A stretch of DNA of 64,000 nt, from the NCBI RefSeq assembly GCF_000429185.2, contig NZ_AUBJ02000001.1:4464001-4528000 (forward strand), read 5' to 3'. The DNA is from Actinoalloteichus caeruleus DSM 43889. GTDB lineage: Bacteria > Actinomycetota > Actinomycetes > Mycobacteriales > Pseudonocardiaceae. Shown piece after piece: positions 31,523 to 38,143 of the stretch (positions are counted from its first letter, which is position 1; each line of letters starts with the position of its first letter). The notes under the pieces were generated by a model. The model made no database searches. It had not been told where the DNA came from and saw only the letters and a program-made list of their open reading frames with translations. Made by a program: the position numbers and the translations under genes.

Positions 31523-32404
31523 GTGCCGTCGAGGGCCCGGGTTCTCCTGACGAGCGCCGCGCTGGCCGCGGCGAGGAACGACGCCGTGCGCGGCCGGTCC
31601 GTCGTGACCCGCCGGCGCACCCGGCAGAACGCGGGGAAGGACGCGGTCGGGGCGGTGCTGGCGGCCCGTCGCCTCGTCGCCAGGTTCGGTCGAGTCCGCC
31701 TCGACCACCTCGTGGAGGGCGCCACCGACCGAGGCGCGGCGGTCCGGGCCACCCAGGAGTTGCTGGACCTGCTTGGCGAGATCGACCTCTCCGGACTGGC
31801 CCCGTTCGTCGACGTCGGGCTCCGGCCCTCGGGCTGCGGGCTCGCGCTGGACGTCGGCCTGGCGGAGGAGAACCTCGACCGGATCTGCGGGCTCGCCCAC
31901 CGCGTCGGGTGCACCGTCACCCTGGACACCGAGGACCACTCCTCGGTGGACCAGGTCCTGGCCGTCGCCGGCTCGCTGCGCGACCGGTGGCGCGGCCTCG
32001 GGGTGGTGCTGCACGCGAACCTCCACCGGACCGTCGAGGACTGCGTGGCGCACTCGCGCGCCGGTTCCCGGGTCGTGCTGAGCCCGGCGTCCCACCCCGA
32101 GTCGGCGTCGGTCGCGGTGTTCGACCCCCACGAGGTGGACCTCCAGTACGTGCGCTGCGCCCGCGTCCTCCTCGCCGGTGCCTGCCGACCGGTGTTCGCC
32201 GCCCGACGTCCCCGGCTGCTCGGCGCCGTGGTCGGCGCGGCCAGGTGGCACCGACGGGATGTGCGCTCGTTCGAGTGCCAGGTGCCCCCCTGGATGCCGC
32301 CGTCGGACCGCCGCCGGCTGGCCGGAGCGGGGGTGGCGCTGCGGGCGGTGGTGAGGTTCGGGGCGGACGCCGGGCCGCCGGTCGTGCCTCGGCCTGGGCA
32401 CTGA
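31523..32404 (+). CDS. Proline-dehydrogenase-like protein, degenerate
   Basis: The 293-residue product follows the PutA/ProDH barrel in outline: VRLDHLVEGATDRGAAVRATQ, VTLDTEDHSSVDQVLAVAGSL, GVVLHANLHRTVEDCVAHS, VDLQYVRCARVLLAG and VRSFECQVPPWMPPSDRRRLA. But sites expected in active enzymes are altered or gone: the KGAY-like strand reads SPASHPES, the FEFQ/YQM-LYG strand reads FECQVPPW, and the final RVYVPYG...YxxRRLAE helix that binds proline is absent. It is probably not an active dehydrogenase. It starts 126 nt after the isomerase gene. Confidence 0.62.
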   Translation: MPSRARVLLTSAALAAARNDAVRGRSVVTRRRTRQNAGKDAVGAVLAARRLVARFGRVRLDHLVEGATDRGAAVRATQELLDLLGEIDLSGLAPFVDVGLRPSGCGLALDVGLAEENLDRICGLAHRVGCTVTLDTEDHSSVDQVLAVAGSLRDRWRGLGVVLHANLHRTVEDCVAHSRAGSRVVLSPASHPESASVAVFDPHEVDLQYVRCARVLLAGACRPVFAARRPRLLGAVVGAARWHRRDVRSFECQVPPWMPPSDRRRLAGAGVALRAVVRFGADAGPPVVPRPGH

Positions 32405-32723
32405 ACTCGAGCGTGGTGCTCCGCCTGGGGGCCGGCGCGGTGGTGCGAGTGGTGGACGGGGACGTCGGTGGGTGTGCCCTGACGGTCGGTCACTGGGGCG
32501 GGCGTTGGAGCACGTGGCCGGTGGTGGCGGCGGTACGGTGGGCGGCGTGACGAGGTCGGCGGTGGGAGTCGCGGCGGTCGAGGGCGAGGTCGCGAGTCCA
32601 ACGGGGACCGACCGCGCCGGGAAGGGGCAGCCATCGCGGGCCGGCGCCCGGCGCCAACGGTGGCGCCGAACCGCACAAGGTCAAGAAACGGTAACGGTCC
32701 TCCATTGGTGCAGGTCGCGAAGG
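32405..32723 (+). other. Probable CRISPR leader region
   Basis: The 319 nt upstream of the first repeat have no convincing gene. The last 70 nt before the array are less GC-rich (around AAGGTCAAGAAACGG) and would be the leader, because the degenerate repeats are at the opposite end. A TACGGT box at 32532-32537 followed by a GTG 7 nt on looks like a leaderless start, but the translation runs into the repeats and is not protein-like. Confidence 0.45.
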
Positions 32724-33239
32724 GAAAGCCCCGCGCAAGCGGGGGTGAGCCGGTCTCGGGTGTCCTCGGCGTGCCTGGCCCGGCGAAAGCCCCGCGCAAG
32801 CGGGGGTGAGCCGTGCGACGCATACGACGCCGAGACCGCCCGCATGAAAGCCCCGCGCAAGCGGGGGTGAGCCGACGTGACCGCCCTGGCGTCGGCCTCC
32901 TACGCGGAAAGCCCCGCGCAAGCGGGGGTGAGCCGGATGCCCTCGACATCGGTCGGCGTCTCCCCTTGAAAGCCCCGCGCAAGCGGGGGTGAGCCGTCGG
33001 ACACGGCGTAGGCGACGCCGCAGCTCACGAAAGCCCCGCGCAAGCGGGGGTGAGCCGCAGGGTCGCCACCCGGGTGCCGGGCGATGGTGCGAAAGCCCCG
33101 CGCAAGCGGGGGTGAGCCGCCCGACCGCACCCGTCACACGTGTGACGCCGTGAAAGCCCCGCGCAAGTGGGGGTGAGCGGCCGCCACCTGCCGGCCGCAT
33201 CCGCACGCCCCGGAAAGCCTTGCGCAAGTGGGTGAGCCG
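32724..33239 (+). CRISPR. Type I-E-like CRISPR array, 9 repeats and 8 spacers
   Basis: The repeat is 29 nt: GAAAG, then the hairpin CCCCGC-GCAA-GCGGGG, then GTGAGCCG. Repeats start at 32724, 32785, 32846, 32907, 32968, 33029, 33091, 33152 and 33213. Spacers are 32 nt except the sixth (33058-33090, 33 nt). Repeats 1-7 are identical; repeat 8 has two changes (AAGT and GCGG) and repeat 9 (33213-33239) is 27 nt and degenerate, which marks the trailer end and puts the leader on the left. A 61-nt period and repeat form fit subtype I-E. No cas gene lies in the window. Confidence 0.95.
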
Positions 33240-33368
33240 CGCCTCGCGACCGGGTACCCGGTCACCCCTCGGCGGCGGGCAGGGGCGTGTCCGGAGTGAT
33301 GTTCCGGTCCCGGCACGGGGTGCTGGTGGTGTGGTCCGCCTGGCTCCCGCTGGCTGGGCGGCACGGAA

Positions 33369-33400
33369 CAGCCCCCGGCTCCGCGCGGAGCCGGGGGCTG
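33369..33400 (-). terminator. 14-bp stem terminator after the DUF397 gene
   Basis: CAGCCCCCGGCTCC (33369-33382) pairs perfectly with GGAGCCGGGGGCTG (33387-33400) around GCGC. It lies 9 nt beyond the DUF397 stop and separates that operon from the CRISPR array. Confidence 0.75.
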
Positions 33401-33409
33401 GGGTGGTTG

Positions 33410-33592
33410 TCAGTGCAGGCGGTCGGCCTTGACGGCGTCGACCAGGGCCACGAAGGCGGTCCGGTGCACCAAAAGTGTTCCGCCGTCCCGGTTCTTGGTG
33501 TCGCGGATGCCGACGACCTCGCTCGCTCCCGTACCGATCTCGACGCAGTTGGACGACGAGACGGATCGTCGAGGTTTGCGCCACCGTGTCAC
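33410..33592 (-). CDS. DUF397 domain protein
   Basis: The 60-residue protein has the DUF397 pattern: WRKPRRSVSSSNCVEIG, then VVGIRDTKNRDGGTLLVHRTAF, ending LVDAVKADRLH. DUF397 proteins are almost always paired with an HTH-DUF5753 regulator, as here; in Streptomyces such WhiJ-type pairs affect development, and toxin-antitoxin-like behaviour has been discussed. The GTG overlaps the TGA of the regulator gene (GTGA). Confidence 0.88.
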   Translation of the reverse strand: MTRWRKPRRSVSSSNCVEIGTGASEVVGIRDTKNRDGGTLLVHRTAFVALVDAVKADRLH

Positions 33593-34422
33593 AGCTCGCC
33601 CTCCAGTGCGCGCAGCCGCGTCCGCGACTCCTCCTCCGACAGGGCCACGCCGAGCAGGTGATCTCTCGTCGCGACCACGGGTGCGACGTCCCGTTCGCTG
33701 TACAGCCAGGTGGATGACCGGTAGTGCTCCAGGTGCACGACCGCCGGCGCGTCGTCGAACTCGATGATCTCGAACCCGGCGACCAGGCCCCGGTAGAAGC
33801 CCCGCTCGGCGGGGATGACGCGGACCGACACGGCGGGCAGCCGTGACCACTCGTGCAGGGCCGCCAGTTGGCCGCGACGGACGTCGACCCCGCCGGGCGG
33901 CGTGGTCCTCCGAAGCGCCAGCTCGTCGATGATCGCCACGTAACCCACGTCCCCGCCGAGGACGTGAGCCCTCCGACGTTCCCTCATCGCGAGTGCCTGG
34001 TCCATGTCGATCGCCGGCGTCTCCCCGTGCGCCAGCAGCGCCGCCGCGTACTCGCGCGTCTGGAGCGGGCCGGGGACGAGGACCGGGTGGACCTCCGTGA
34101 TGGAGCTGGCGTCGCGTTCGTAGCGCTCCAGATCGGTCAACGATTCGGCGATCTCGTCCGATCCGACCGGCGACCACTGCTGGACGGTGACCGTGTCGAC
34201 CAGTTTCCCCAACTCGGCGCGGAGCGCACCGGGCGGGTCGTAGAGCTCGATCATCCGGGCGACGGCGCTGGCGTCCGGTGTCCGTGAACCTCGTTCAGAT
34301 CGGGATATCAGCGACTGGCTGACTCCCAGCTGTCGGGCTGCCTGCTGCTGGCTCAGGCCCGCTGCGGTGCGGGCTTGTGCCAGGGCGCGGCCCAAGGCCA
34401 GGACTGCCGGTGAGCGCGCCAT
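33589..34422 (-). CDS. Helix-turn-helix regulator with DUF5753 domain
   Basis: The 277-residue protein has an XRE-type HTH (ALAQARTAAGLSQQQAARQL, GVSQSLISRSERGSRTPDAS) followed by a DUF5753 domain (PVLVPGPLQTREYAAALL, RERRRAHVLGG, ALRRTTPPGGVDVRRGQLAAL, VSVRVIPAERGFYRGLVAGFEIIEF). It forms the actinomycete regulator/DUF397 module. A GAAAGGAAGG ribosome site precedes the ATG, and palindromes at 34474-34492 may be its operator. The pair lies between the CRISPR array and a solitary CRISPR repeat. Confidence 0.9.
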   Translation of the reverse strand: MARSPAVLALGRALAQARTAAGLSQQQAARQLGVSQSLISRSERGSRTPDASAVARMIELYDPPGALRAELGKLVDTVTVQQWSPVGSDEIAESLTDLERYERDASSITEVHPVLVPGPLQTREYAAALLAHGETPAIDMDQALAMRERRRAHVLGGDVGYVAIIDELALRRTTPPGGVDVRRGQLAALHEWSRLPAVSVRVIPAERGFYRGLVAGFEIIEFDDAPAVVHLEHYRSSTWLYSERDVAPVVATRDHLLGVALSEEESRTRLRALEGEL

Positions 34423-34473
34423 ACTGCCTTCCTTTCATGCTTACGGGTTATTCGCTGACTGTCGATTCGCACT

Positions 34474-34492
34474 AGTCGACTGAGTCGCGACT
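34474..34492. promoter_or_regulatory. Adjacent palindromes AGTCGACT and AGTCGCGACT
   Basis: AGTCGACT (34474-34481) and AGTCGCGACT (34483-34492) are near-identical dyads separated by one base, in the only clearly AT-richer stretch nearby (34430-34560), 52 nt upstream of the HTH-DUF5753 gene. They are good candidates for its autoregulatory operator. Confidence 0.45.
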
Positions 34493-34562
34493 GATTATGA
34501 CGGAATGAAAAGTCGCGCTTACGGATTGAGGTTAGCGCACGAGCGGATCGCTTCTTGCCGGT

Positions 34563-34829
34563 GTGATCGTCGTTGTACCGGCTGTCCTCCTGGTCGTCGT
34601 CGCGGTCCTGGTCGGATACCACGTGGACCGTTCTGAGCAGCACCGCGACCCGGGACCGAAATTGGTGGTCTCCTCTTGGTCAGCTGTTCCGTTCGACCAG
34701 TCCGTTCCGCTGTTCTTCCCGTCGTTGGCGTCGCTACCGATCGAGCAGGTGCGCCGGGCCGTTGCGGAGTACTTCCGGACGGGCCGCCGGCCGGACTGCG
34801 TCCAGCGGCAGCCGGGGGACTGGTACTGA
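34563..34829 (+). CDS. Small membrane protein, unknown
   Basis: The 88-residue ORF starts at GTG 34563 with a hydrophobic helix (IVVVPAVLLVVVAVLVGYHV) followed by a soluble tail containing a helix (PIEQVRRAVAEYFRTGRRPD) and ending DCVQRQPGDWY. No ribosome site is obvious. It diverges from the HTH-DUF5753/DUF397 pair across 140 nt. I do not recognise the family; it could be part of that module or a chance ORF, but its membrane-then-helix order and residue balance look protein-like. Confidence 0.5.
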   Translation: MIVVVPAVLLVVVAVLVGYHVDRSEQHRDPGPKLVVSSWSAVPFDQSVPLFFPSLASLPIEQVRRAVAEYFRTGRRPDCVQRQPGDWY

Positions 34830-34918
34830 GAACGCCCGCGCCCACCTGGTGGGCGAGTCCGGCGGCGATGACGAACCAGGCTCCGTCTCCCCGTCGCGGC
34901 GCCGGCGGTGTGGTGCGG

Positions 34919-34947
34919 GAAAGCCCCGCGCGAGCGGGGGTGAGCCG
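34919..34947 (+). repeat. Solitary CRISPR repeat upstream of proC
   Basis: These 29 nt match the array consensus with one change: the loop reads GCGA instead of GCAA, and the hairpin CCCCGC/GCGGGG is intact. It is in the same orientation as the array and 1.68 kb from its last repeat. It has no second repeat, so there is no spacer. Confidence 0.85.
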
Positions 34948-35051
34948 GTATGGGCGACCGGGTTTCGCGCACCGGCGGGAATCCCACCGATCGGGCGGGC
35001 TCCGCTGGAGTGCGTGCGGCGGCGGAGCGCGAGCTGGCAGGCTCACCCTCC

Positions 35052-35888
35052 ATGAGTTCTATCGCAGTACTCGGTGCGGGCAAGATCGGCGAGGCGTTGC
35101 TCTCCGGCCTGATCCGAGCCGGACACCAGCCCGACACGCTCTCCTTCACCGAGCGCCACCCGGGCCGGGCGAAGGAGCTGGCGGGGCGGCACGGGGTTGA
35201 CGCGGTGGCGGTCGCCGAGGCAGCCGTGAATGCCGACGTCCTGGTGGTGGCGGTGAAACCGCAGGACATCGAGCCGCTGCTCGACGACCTGAGCGGCTCG
35301 GTGGCCGAACGCCCGGCGGACAGGGGCCTCCCGCTGGTGGTCTCGCTCTGCGCGGGCCTGCCCACCGCCCTCTACGAGAGCAGGTTGCCGCCGGGCACGC
35401 CGGTGGTGCGGGCGATGCCGAACACGCCGATGCTGGTGGGTGAGGCGATGAGCGTCATCTCGGCCGGTAGCCACGCGTCCGAGGACGACCTCTCGCTGGT
35501 GGAGGAACTGCTGGCGAGCGTGGGCCGGGTCCTGCGGGTCCCCGAGGAACAGCAGGACGCCGTGACCGCGCTGTCCGGTTCCGGCCCGGCCTACTTCTTC
35601 TACCTCGTCGAGGCGATGATCGACGCGGGCATCCTGCTCGGACTGCCCAGGGCGGCGGCGGCCGAGCTGATCATCCAGTCGGCGGTGGGCGCGGCCACCA
35701 TGCTCCGTGGATCGGAGAGCCATCCCGTCATCCTCCGGGAGGCCGTCACGTCTCCGGCCGGCACGACGATCGCCGGGATCAGGGAACTGGAGAAGCACGG
35801 CGTGCGGGCGGCGATGATCGACGCGATCGAGGCGGCCAGGGACCGGTCGGTGGAACTGGGCAGAGCCCACGAGGGAACCGGGAGCTGA
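35052..35888 (+). CDS. proC: Pyrroline-5-carboxylate reductase
   Basis: The 278-residue enzyme makes the last step of proline synthesis with NAD(P)H. It shows the Rossmann motif VLGAGKIGEALLSGLI, VVAVKPQDIEPLL near residue 62, VVRAMPNTPMLVGEAM near 117, ALSGSGPAYFFYLVEAM near 175 and SPAGTTIAGIRELE near 235. CAGGCT at 35038-35043 lies 8 nt before the ATG, suggesting a leaderless transcript; an upstream ATG at 34950 would start inside sequence next to the CRISPR repeat and is rejected. Confidence 0.95.
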   Translation: MSSIAVLGAGKIGEALLSGLIRAGHQPDTLSFTERHPGRAKELAGRHGVDAVAVAEAAVNADVLVVAVKPQDIEPLLDDLSGSVAERPADRGLPLVVSLCAGLPTALYESRLPPGTPVVRAMPNTPMLVGEAMSVISAGSHASEDDLSLVEELLASVGRVLRVPEEQQDAVTALSGSGPAYFFYLVEAMIDAGILLGLPRAAAAELIIQSAVGAATMLRGSESHPVILREAVTSPAGTTIAGIRELEKHGVRAAMIDAIEAARDRSVELGRAHEGTGS

Positions 35889-36062
35889 CCCGGGTCCGGC
35901 CTGGTCAGCGCGGCTCCCGCCGGTCGCGCGCCCCTCGGCCGCCTCGCTCGTGCGTCGCAGGAACACCAGGGGCACCGTTACCCTCGACAGCAGCACGTGC
36001 GTGTCGGTACCGCTGGGAGGGGAAGCCCGGCGGCGCGGCAGGTGCCGAAGGAAACGGTGGCT

Positions 36063-36275
36063 ATGTTGACGCAAAGGGAGCATGACAACGGATTCGGCCA
36101 GGTTCGATTCCTGACTGTCGCCGAAGTGGCGGCGATGATGCGAGTGTCCAAGATGACGGTCTACCGACTGGTCCATTCGGGTGAACTGCCCGCGGTGCGG
36201 GTCGGCAGGTCGTTCCGCGTCCCGGAGAAGACCGTGCACGCCTATCTCCAGAAGTCGTACTACGACGTGGGATGA
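36063..36275 (+). CDS. Excisionase-type winged-helix protein, BdtA/Rv0500A-like
   Basis: The 70-residue protein is nearly all DNA-binding domain: FLTVAEVAAMMRVSKMTVYR, then LVHSGELPAVRVGRSFRVPEK, and a short tail VHAYLQKSYYDVG. This is the MerR/excisionase winged helix conserved between proC and bS22 in actinobacteria (Rv0500A; BdtA in Streptomyces by recall). It is probably a small transcription regulator. ATG 36063 follows GAAGGAAACGG. Confidence 0.9.
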   Translation: MLTQREHDNGFGQVRFLTVAEVAAMMRVSKMTVYRLVHSGELPAVRVGRSFRVPEKTVHAYLQKSYYDVG

Positions 36276-36652
36276 GCGAGCGTCCGGCTGCCGGCCGTCC
36301 GGTCGGCAGCCGGGTCACTCCACCAGGCGCCGCGTCCACCACCGCCCGCGTCGCTCCCGAACGCGTCCACCGATCGTTCCCGGAACCGTGCTCGTCCCCC
36401 GGCCCACCGGCGCGGGAGGGCGCGATCCGTCTCGGCGCCCGCGCGGCGCCGGAAACCCGGCCCGGCGCGTCCCGTGCCCCCGCCCCGCCCCGGTGGCCGA
36501 CGCCGGCGCCCGGACAGGGCTGCGAGGACCGGCTACCGACCCGGGTACGCTGGTAGGCCGTTCGCACCCGACGTGTTCCCGCGGTCCTCGACTCGCGGTT
36601 CGCGTGGTGCGAGGAACGCACCAAGAGACGATGAGAACTGCGAGGGACCCGT
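36276..36652. other. Gene-free region upstream of bS22
   Basis: No conserved ORF is visible in the 377 nt. TACGCT at 36546-36551 is a good -10 box and would give a leader of roughly 95 nt to the bS22 gene. No clear -35 box is seen. Confidence 0.45.
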
Positions 36653-36754
36653 ATGGGCTCGGTCATCAAGAAGCGTCGCAAGCGGATGTCCAAGAAGAAG
36701 CACCGCAAGCTGCTCCGCAGGACCCGCGTGCAGCGGCGCAAGCTCGGCAAGTGA
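36653..36754 (+). CDS. Small ribosomal protein bS22 (AURKAIP1/COX24 domain)
   Basis: The 33-residue, extremely basic protein begins [20 protein letters not shown] and ends [12 protein letters not shown]. It matches the mycobacterial 30S protein bS22 (Rv0500B), found near the decoding region of the ribosome. It is widely missed because of its size. GCGAGGGA serves as ribosome site and a strong terminator follows at 36787. Confidence 0.93.
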
Positions 36755-36786
36755 GTCCGAGCCGGCCGGTCCGCCCCGCAGGTGGC

Positions 36787-36816
36787 CCACCGCGACGCCC
36801 AGCGGCGTCGCGGTGG
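36787..36816 (+). terminator. 13-bp perfect hairpin after bS22
   Basis: CCACCGCGACGCC (36787-36799) and GGCGTCGCGGTGG (36804-36816) pair perfectly around the loop CAGC, 32 nt after the bS22 stop. Confidence 0.75.
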
Positions 36817-36973
36817 CGGCTCCGCGCGTCATGGGCGACCGGCCGGCCGGCGCCGTCCACCCGGCTCGTCCGTTCCCCGCGGGGCGGTGGGCGTCCGGGT
36901 GAACCGATCGGCCGCCCGTGACCCGGCTCAGCCCGCCGGATTGCGCCGATCGAGTGGAACGGTCACCCGTCGG

Positions 36974-37004
36974 TTGTCGCGGCCCTCGTGACGTCTCGTA
37001 GCCT
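36974..37004 (+). promoter_or_regulatory. Promoter for the epimerase gene
   Basis: TTGTCG (36974-36979) and TAGCCT (36999-37004) are 19 nt apart; an alternative -35 TCGCGG (36977-36982) gives 16 nt. Transcription would start about 95 nt before the ATG at 37109. Confidence 0.4.
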
Positions 37005-37108
37005 GGCACCAGCGGTCTCGTCGGCGATCCAGCGAGGTGTCGGCCGCGACCCGGTCCGTCTGGACGGGTGCCGCCGTGGTCCCGACACCACGTGATGGGA
37101 GCCAGACC

Positions 37109-38143
37109 ATGACACCTCGCGTCGTCCTGGTGACCGGTGTGAACGGGTTCCTGGGAGCCCAGCTCGCGATGCGGCTGGCGTCCGACCCGGACATCGAGCG
37201 CGTGCTGTGCGTGGACATCGTTCCCCCCTCCCCCGAGGTCCGGCGGAGGCTGGGCAGGGCGGAGTTCATCCGCGCCGACATCAGGAACAGGCTGATCGCC
37301 AAGGTGATCGCCGCCGCCCGGGTGGACACGGTCGTGCACACCTCGGTCAGCCCGGAACCCGTCGGTGGCGGTCGCGCGCTCAACAAGGAACTCAACGTCA
37401 TCGGCACGATGCAGCTCCTCGCCGCCTGCCAGACCTCGCCGCTGGTCCGCAGGGTGGTCCTGAAGTCGACGAGCGCCGTCTACGGCAGCAGCCCCCGGGA
37501 TCCGGCGGTCTTCACCGAGCGGACGGAACCGCGCGAACTGCCCAGCGGCGGCTACGCCAAGGACGCCGCCGAGATCGAGGGCTACCTGCGGGGCTTCGCG
37601 CGACGGCGGCCCGACGTCGTCACCACCACGCTCCGTTTCAGCAACTTCCTCGGCCCCCGGGCCGACACCGTCCTGTCCCGGTACTTCGCGCTGCCGGCGG
37701 TACCCGTTCCCCTCGGTCACGATCCCCGCCTCCAACTCGTGCACACCGAGGACGCCGTCGCGGTCACCCGACTCGCCACCCTCACCGACCTGCCGGGCGT
37801 GTACAACGTGGCGGGTGAGGGCGTGCTGACGCTCACCCAGGCGGTGCGCAGGGCTGGCAGGCTGCCAGTGGTCCTGCCCAGGCCGGCGTTGCGCCCCGTC
37901 GGCGCCGTGCTGCGCCGGGTGGTCCCGCTCGGGTGGCCACCGGAGTCCGGTACGCCTGACTTCGGACAGGTGATGGACACCACCTCTCTGCGGGAGAACG
38001 CCGGCTTCGTGCCGCGGTGGTCGACGGCTCAGGTGTTTGATGACTTCGTCCAGGGCAGGGGACTGCGCCCGCTGGTCGACGCGGACCGGTTGGGCGGCGG
38101 GTGGGATCGGATCCGGTCCGCGACCGTGCCCGGACGACGCTGA
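37109..38143 (+). CDS. NAD-dependent epimerase/dehydratase family protein (Rv0501-like)
   Basis: The 344-residue extended SDR has the NAD motif VTGVNGFLGAQLAMRL near residue 8, DIVPPSPEVRRRL, VVLKSTSAVYGSSPRD near 112 and FSNFLGPRADTVLSR near 177. At the catalytic Tyr (SGGYAKDAAEIEGYLR) the usual Lys at +4 is Ala; the same GYAKD form is, as I recall, typical of the Rv0501 group, so this may be a non-epimerising relative. It precedes an acyltransferase gene as in mycobacteria. Confidence 0.85.
   Translation: MTPRVVLVTGVNGFLGAQLAMRLASDPDIERVLCVDIVPPSPEVRRRLGRAEFIRADIRNRLIAKVIAAARVDTVVHTSVSPEPVGGGRALNKELNVIGTMQLLAACQTSPLVRRVVLKSTSAVYGSSPRDPAVFTERTEPRELPSGGYAKDAAEIEGYLRGFARRRPDVVTTTLRFSNFLGPRADTVLSRYFALPAVPVPLGHDPRLQLVHTEDAVAVTRLATLTDLPGVYNVAGEGVLTLTQAVRRAGRLPVVLPRPALRPVGAVLRRVVPLGWPPESGTPDFGQVMDTTSLRENAGFVPRWSTAQVFDDFVQGRGLRPLVDADRLGGGWDRIRSATVPGRR

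Follow-up and report, generated by a model that had tools for sequence, protein, structure and literature searches.

The single CRISPR repeat just upstream of proC in Actinoalloteichus caeruleus is, judged from sequence comparison, most probably a decaying leftover of the leader-distal end of the neighbouring array, severed from it by a regulator gene pair of a kind common in actinobacteria. The window, meaning the whole stretch of 64,000 nt that was analysed, holds these features around the repeat:

32677..32723, + strand: CRISPR leader block (AAGGTCAAGAAACGGTAACGG...GCAGGTCGCGAAGG), near-identical to or recognisable in the block before the family's other arrays
32724..33180, + strand: type I-E-like orphan array, seven perfect 29-nt repeats and an eighth with two mismatches, with spacers of 32-33 nt
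33213..33239, + strand: degenerate leader-distal ninth repeat of 27 nt, with a 2-nt deletion common to the congener
33410..33595, - strand: DUF397 protein, 61 aa (Pfam PF04149, 4.6e-15)
33589..34422, - strand: XRE-type HTH-DUF5753 regulator, 277 aa (Pfam PF19054, 9.8e-40; PF13560, HTH_31, 1.3e-16)
34563..34829, + strand: Imm1-type immunity protein, C-terminal part (Pfam PF14430, 1e-8)
34919..34947, + strand: lone CRISPR repeat, leaderless, 28 of 29 bases as in the array repeat; read as the first unit left of an old array tail
35052..35888, + strand: proC, pyrroline-5-carboxylate reductase (Pfam PF14748, 1.9e-39)

The lone repeat was recovered exactly at 34919-34947 on the + strand, in the orientation of the array (32724-33239) and with the degree of identity that the sequence-only reading had claimed; its one change relative to the array repeat is GCGCAAGC to GCGCGAGC. 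The alignment score was 54 of 58 against a top score of 23 in 260 kb of reversed sequence, and the reversed repeat pattern gave no genome match at three or fewer mismatches, so the lone repeat is not a chance match. It folds into a hairpin with a 6-bp GC stem (z -2.6), sits chromosomally between PRODH and proC and ends 104 nt before the proC start at 35052, the gap that had been read from the letters; the HTH-DUF5753/DUF397 module reported between array and lone repeat was likewise identified by Pfam. No trace of a leader block was found in the 130 nt 5' of the lone repeat. Other repeat-like candidates in the window were rejected. A third repeat at 34979-35004 scored 11 (probability about 0.03) and is not significant, a hairpin resembling the repeat and ending at 34861 (score 19) does not keep the array period and is consistent with a terminator downstream of the Imm1 fragment, and a match at 33796 (score 24) lies inside the DUF5753 coding sequence. 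Matches of the repeats to the Rfam Chlorobi-1 RNA reached 17-19 bits, under the gathering score of 50.

In repeat and spacing the array itself conforms to type I-E, with a 29-nt hairpin repeat, unique spacers of about 32 nt and a 61-nt period. The perfect repeat GAAAGCCCCGCGCAAGCGGGGGTGAGCCG starts at 32724, 32785, 32846, 32907, 32968, 33029 and 33091, the eighth repeat lies at 33152, and the period across 32724-33239 is 61-62 nt. A leader directly precedes the first repeat at 32724 and does not precede the repeat at 34919. The leader block recurs, near-identical or recognisable, before each of the genome's four leader-bearing arrays with this type of repeat, as well as before those congener arrays whose start was assembled. 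No phage match was found for the spacers of the window array. The degenerate ninth repeat, the + strand Imm1-like fragment and the further arrays of the same family had no place in the sequence-only reading.

On the 6.04-Mb chromosome the leader-bearing arrays of the family are located at 646, 1963, 4497 (the window array) and 5312 kb; in addition, a remnant of two repeats without a leader lies at 2095 kb and a tail of three degenerate repeats at 1962 kb. In the 646-kb array (L014:8427-8821) one 32-nt spacer occurs three times in tandem. The array at 1963 kb (L012, C1:1961940-1963320) begins with a leader and three intact repeats. The next interval, of about 1.1 kb, contains coding sequence, assigned by eye to the C-terminus of an exonuclease-like frame and to a frame of nudix type; beyond it come three degenerate repeats that match the intact ones in orientation and period. 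The layout in the window is therefore not unique in the genome, as the same arrangement recurs there with different genes between. The GCGCGAGC variant of the lone repeat is also present in the 1962-kb tail and in one other array of the genome. The only Cas6e gene found lies at about 1.69 Mb (L016) with cse1, cas7 and cas5, next to an array with another repeat; no cas1, cas2 or cas3 was found beside this type I-E locus. Cas1 genes were found in the I-C locus (0.51 Mb) and the I-B locus (1.93 Mb), and no type I-E Cas1 was recognisable in the genome.

The history of the locus was approached through one genome of the same genus (G001), on which the whole congener comparison rests. Its proC contig, at about 90-95% identity, shows the leader, array, degenerate last repeat, gene pair and pre-proC repeat in the same layout as the window, and the last array repeat carries the identical two-base deletion. 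All array spacers differ between the two, none being common, which implies turnover of the array on the leader side and none in the tail. The pre-proC repeat of G001, GAAAGCCCGCGCGAGCGGGGGTCGAGCCC, has two 1-nt indels and folds more weakly (z -0.9 versus -2.6 in the window). A second decayed repeat, GAGAGGCCCCACGCAGGCGTTCGGGGGGCCG, starts 58 nt after it, i.e. at one array period, with a score of 20, where a score of at least 20 within an 11-nt window has a local probability of about 0.001. A further degenerate repeat at array spacing, as expected of an array remnant, is thus present in G001. It lies within about 48 nt that are present in G001 and missing in the window, and the pre-proC element accordingly behaves as an array tail that is losing units. 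Taken with the shared layout, this second repeat marks the lone repeat as the better-preserved survivor of a leaderless tail that is older than the species split. The earlier suggestion that it might be the remnant of a once longer array gained support in this way, since the repeat has no leader, sits distal to the leader in the orientation of the array and is accompanied in G001 by a second decayed repeat.

Parts of the locus have been exchanged more recently. Window positions 35020-37818 are nearly identical to G001, with three differences in 2.8 kb and proC DNA identical, and a second near-identical stretch covers about 31600-31990; both are flanked by DNA of about 90-95% identity. These tracts, proC included, indicate recent homologous exchange, and one edge of a recombinant tract lies about 75 nt from the lone repeat. 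The density of substitutions and indels within the lone repeat (1 substitution and 2 indels in 29 nt) is, on small numbers, not below that of the surroundings. Neither this density nor the repeat's fold and distance to proC point to selection on a proC control element. Elsewhere in G001 (C237:7356; L162:7226-7384) one repeat alone stands behind a leader block, as in an array that is empty or has collapsed. At the corresponding type I-E locus, G001 (L179) retains a type I-E Cas1, and a long open frame stands at the cas3 position.

Between array and proC, the start of the DUF397 gene overlaps the stop of the HTH gene, and an XRE HTH and DUF5753 protein beside a DUF397 protein is the arrangement that characterises XRE-DUF397 pairs. 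Against the congener, a dN/dS-like ratio of about 0.18 indicates purifying selection on the HTH-DUF5753 gene; DUF397, at about 0.39 from few sites, is probably under purifying selection as well, and the Imm1 fragment, at about 0.86, looks to be evolving without clear constraint. The Imm1 match covers only profile positions 61-125 of 125 and the N-terminus of the frame is unrelated, and the frame at 34563-34829 is probably a gene fragment. Known actinobacterial pairs, such as SCO4441/SCO4442 (PMC6262351, PMC10364602), likewise combine an HTH and DUF5753 regulator with an overlapping small DUF397 gene, but the pair in the window differs in being placed between a CRISPR array and a remnant, beside an Imm1 fragment. 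Toxin-antitoxin function has been proposed for XRE-DUF397 pairs in the literature, yet regulatory effects have been demonstrated (PMC10364602). The module probably works without any link to the CRISPR sequences, as a regulator of the usual XRE-DUF397 kind or a putative toxin-antitoxin pair. At the module borders no trace of the IS3-family element described below was found, and inspection revealed no target-site duplication or integrase. A 24-nt inverted repeat flanking the module (33302-33325 and 34638-34661) was considered as a transposon end and rejected, since others that look equally good occur in this GC-rich sequence.

The comparison was extended to the proC loci of 80 named relatives, nearly all Pseudonocardiaceae, a set that may omit close named relatives of the genus. 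Most of these loci have a TIM-barrel gene upstream of proC and a subset has a PRODH-like gene. None has an HTH-DUF5753 homologue, and none has a repeat with fewer than eight mismatches or any convincing copy. Among 150 genomes of the family, close relatives of the HTH-DUF5753 protein were found only in the two congeners, and the next, in another genus, were 39-43% identical. Not found in the other relatives compared, the gene pair and the array are lineage-specific at the proC site. A comparison of relatives had been proposed with the sequence-only reading; it turned up neither a lone repeat with no array nearby nor the module at this place with no repeats, as G001 has all three together and the 80 others have neither module nor repeat.

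From these comparisons the following history can be proposed. At an earlier time a longer array, or an old tail of the present one, would have extended to just upstream of proC. The XRE-DUF5753/DUF397 pair and the Imm1 fragment would have come into its distal part before the two species separated. The leader side would have stayed joined to its leader and gone on exchanging spacers, while the repeats past the module, having lost the leader, could not be renewed and would have been decaying and deleting since, leaving two recognisable tail units in G001 and one in the window. Since the search brought up no array-bearing genome that lacks the module, we infer, and did not directly see, entry of the module by insertion into the array. 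The idea of a split by module insertion, already put forward from the letters, is thus plausible and has a counterpart in the second array of like layout at 1963 kb, while the step itself is reconstructed. G001 was unusable as an empty site for that second array, as its contig ends in an IS inside the array. The remnant is presumably without function. Counting against the proposed history, the lone repeat at 28 of 29 bases is better kept in the window than might be expected if it had only decayed since before the two species parted; it could have been refreshed by recombination with copies in the array.

Also counting against it, a pair of tandem arrays that were never continuous, the distal one losing its leader when the module arrived, would look alike and is not separable from a split by sequence alone, and the GCGCGAGC variant does occur in the 1962-kb tail and in a different array. 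Such a pair is nevertheless unlikely, as it requires an extra leader and an extra loss, and the 130 nt before the lone repeat hold no leader trace. Growth in place of decay, with the lone repeat as a seed or nascent array awaiting spacers, could draw on its good preservation and on the leader with a single repeat elsewhere in G001, hence on the existence of such structures in the genus. The missing leader block at 34919, the decay and not growth seen at the site in G001 and the lack of a recognisable type I-E Cas1 in the window genome make this highly improbable, and the earlier proposal of a seed repeat at the proC promoter is not supported. There is even less to be said for a Racr-like solitary repeat unit, an RNA anti-CRISPR that a mobile element would have carried in along with the module. 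Racrs do consist of solitary repeats (PMC10651486), and the lone repeat adjoins a probably acquired gene pair. Whereas a Racr is a single repeat after a promoter in a virus or mobile element, the repeat here is chromosomal, its surroundings showed no phage or plasmid genes, no sigma-70-type site was found before it, and the second decayed repeat of G001, at array spacing, fits an array tail and not a single unit.

A regulatory role was the other possibility to be weighed. The hairpin was said to lie in or beside the proC control region; this holds for its position and not for a function, as the repeat in G001 has two indels, a weaker fold and another distance to proC, and with sequence, fold and distance not kept in the congener a role for proC is unsupported. 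In the CreA-like form of this idea the lone repeat would be a domesticated ectopic repeat whose crRNA-like guide steers Cascade to a promoter, e.g. that of proC or of the XRE gene. The hairpin is intact and stands beside the promoter region, and cse1, cas7, cas5 and cas6e of type I-E remain, so that with no cas3, cas1 or cas2 found adjacent binding alone would be possible. CreTA and CreA ectopic repeats (PMC8501985, PMC9458426) are likewise one or two CRISPR-like repeats outside an array beside other genes. Unlike them, the window yielded no conserved guide, target match or toxin, and the repeat decays in G001. The 'spacer' after the lone repeat is not common to G001, given the 48-nt difference, no seed match with an AAG/ATG motif was found near the proC or XRE promoter, and a scan restricted to the sigma-70 type found no promoter upstream of the lone repeat. 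In CreTA a guide flanked by two repeats partly matches a toxin promoter; the putative guide of the window showed no such match near proC or the XRE gene and is not kept in G001. A CreA-like function is thus very unlikely.

An IS3-family element of 1322 nt, with ends TGGACCGTACTGG...GGGGCGGTCCA, an OrfA (PF01527) and an OrfB (rve), was observed in other arrays. The window genome has copies at 665 kb (L193, C1:665173) and 1767 kb (L195, C1:1767009) and a 69-nt remnant at 2095 kb (L011:5564-5633, C1:2095607). In G001 the element is cut off at three contig ends, giving two left ends (L164:16-41 and L179:9833-9858) and one right end. Each of the five left ends located in the two genomes (at three or fewer mismatches) lies in a spacer of a CRISPR array; the arrays belong to different repeat families, both orientations occur, and 3-nt target duplications are visible wherever the two ends were assembled. 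The copy count is small, and older, more diverged copies would escape detection. The element may prefer CRISPR arrays. Four distant relatives (about 50% identity) are found on plasmids, where the neighbouring genes carry no CRISPR annotation. In M. tuberculosis, IS6110, likewise of the IS3 family, is known in the CRISPR locus (PMC7708916). A speculative and rather doubtful extension would treat the CRISPR arrays of the genus as docking sites for foreign DNA that are repeatedly left with leaderless tails. XRE-DUF397 in the window, the nudix-type gene at 1963 kb and the IS3-family element might then all have settled in arrays, and arrays might suit this by being harmless to interrupt and rich in similar hairpins.

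To return to the array remnant, the lone repeat is real, well explained and ordinary, one more remnant of an already known kind, for which a neighbour genome is informative. Orphan arrays and remnants of arrays that lie apart from cas genes (Shmakov et al. 2020), in so far as PMC8616872 describes them in citing that study, resemble the present family in that its arrays are likewise far from cas, with degenerate leader-distal repeats and leftovers after loss of cas or leader. Unlike those in that description, the leftover in the window is parted from its array by a gene pair and adjoins a housekeeping gene. In Mycobacterium tuberculosis, where IS6110 interrupts the CRISPR locus (PMC7708916), an array has similarly been split by inserted DNA and has then lost repeats on one side, but the inserted DNA of the window is a regulator pair that lacks IS features, and the IS3 insertions of the genus are in other arrays.

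If the pattern of insertion into arrays is general, a preferred landing of mobile DNA in arrays becomes testable. The locus also advises caution, in that a relative should be checked before isolated repeats near promoters are read as regulatory RNAs. For the biology of the genus, it offers an example, dated before the species split, of how a CRISPR array ages: on the leader side all spacers are replaced, and the severed tail decays.
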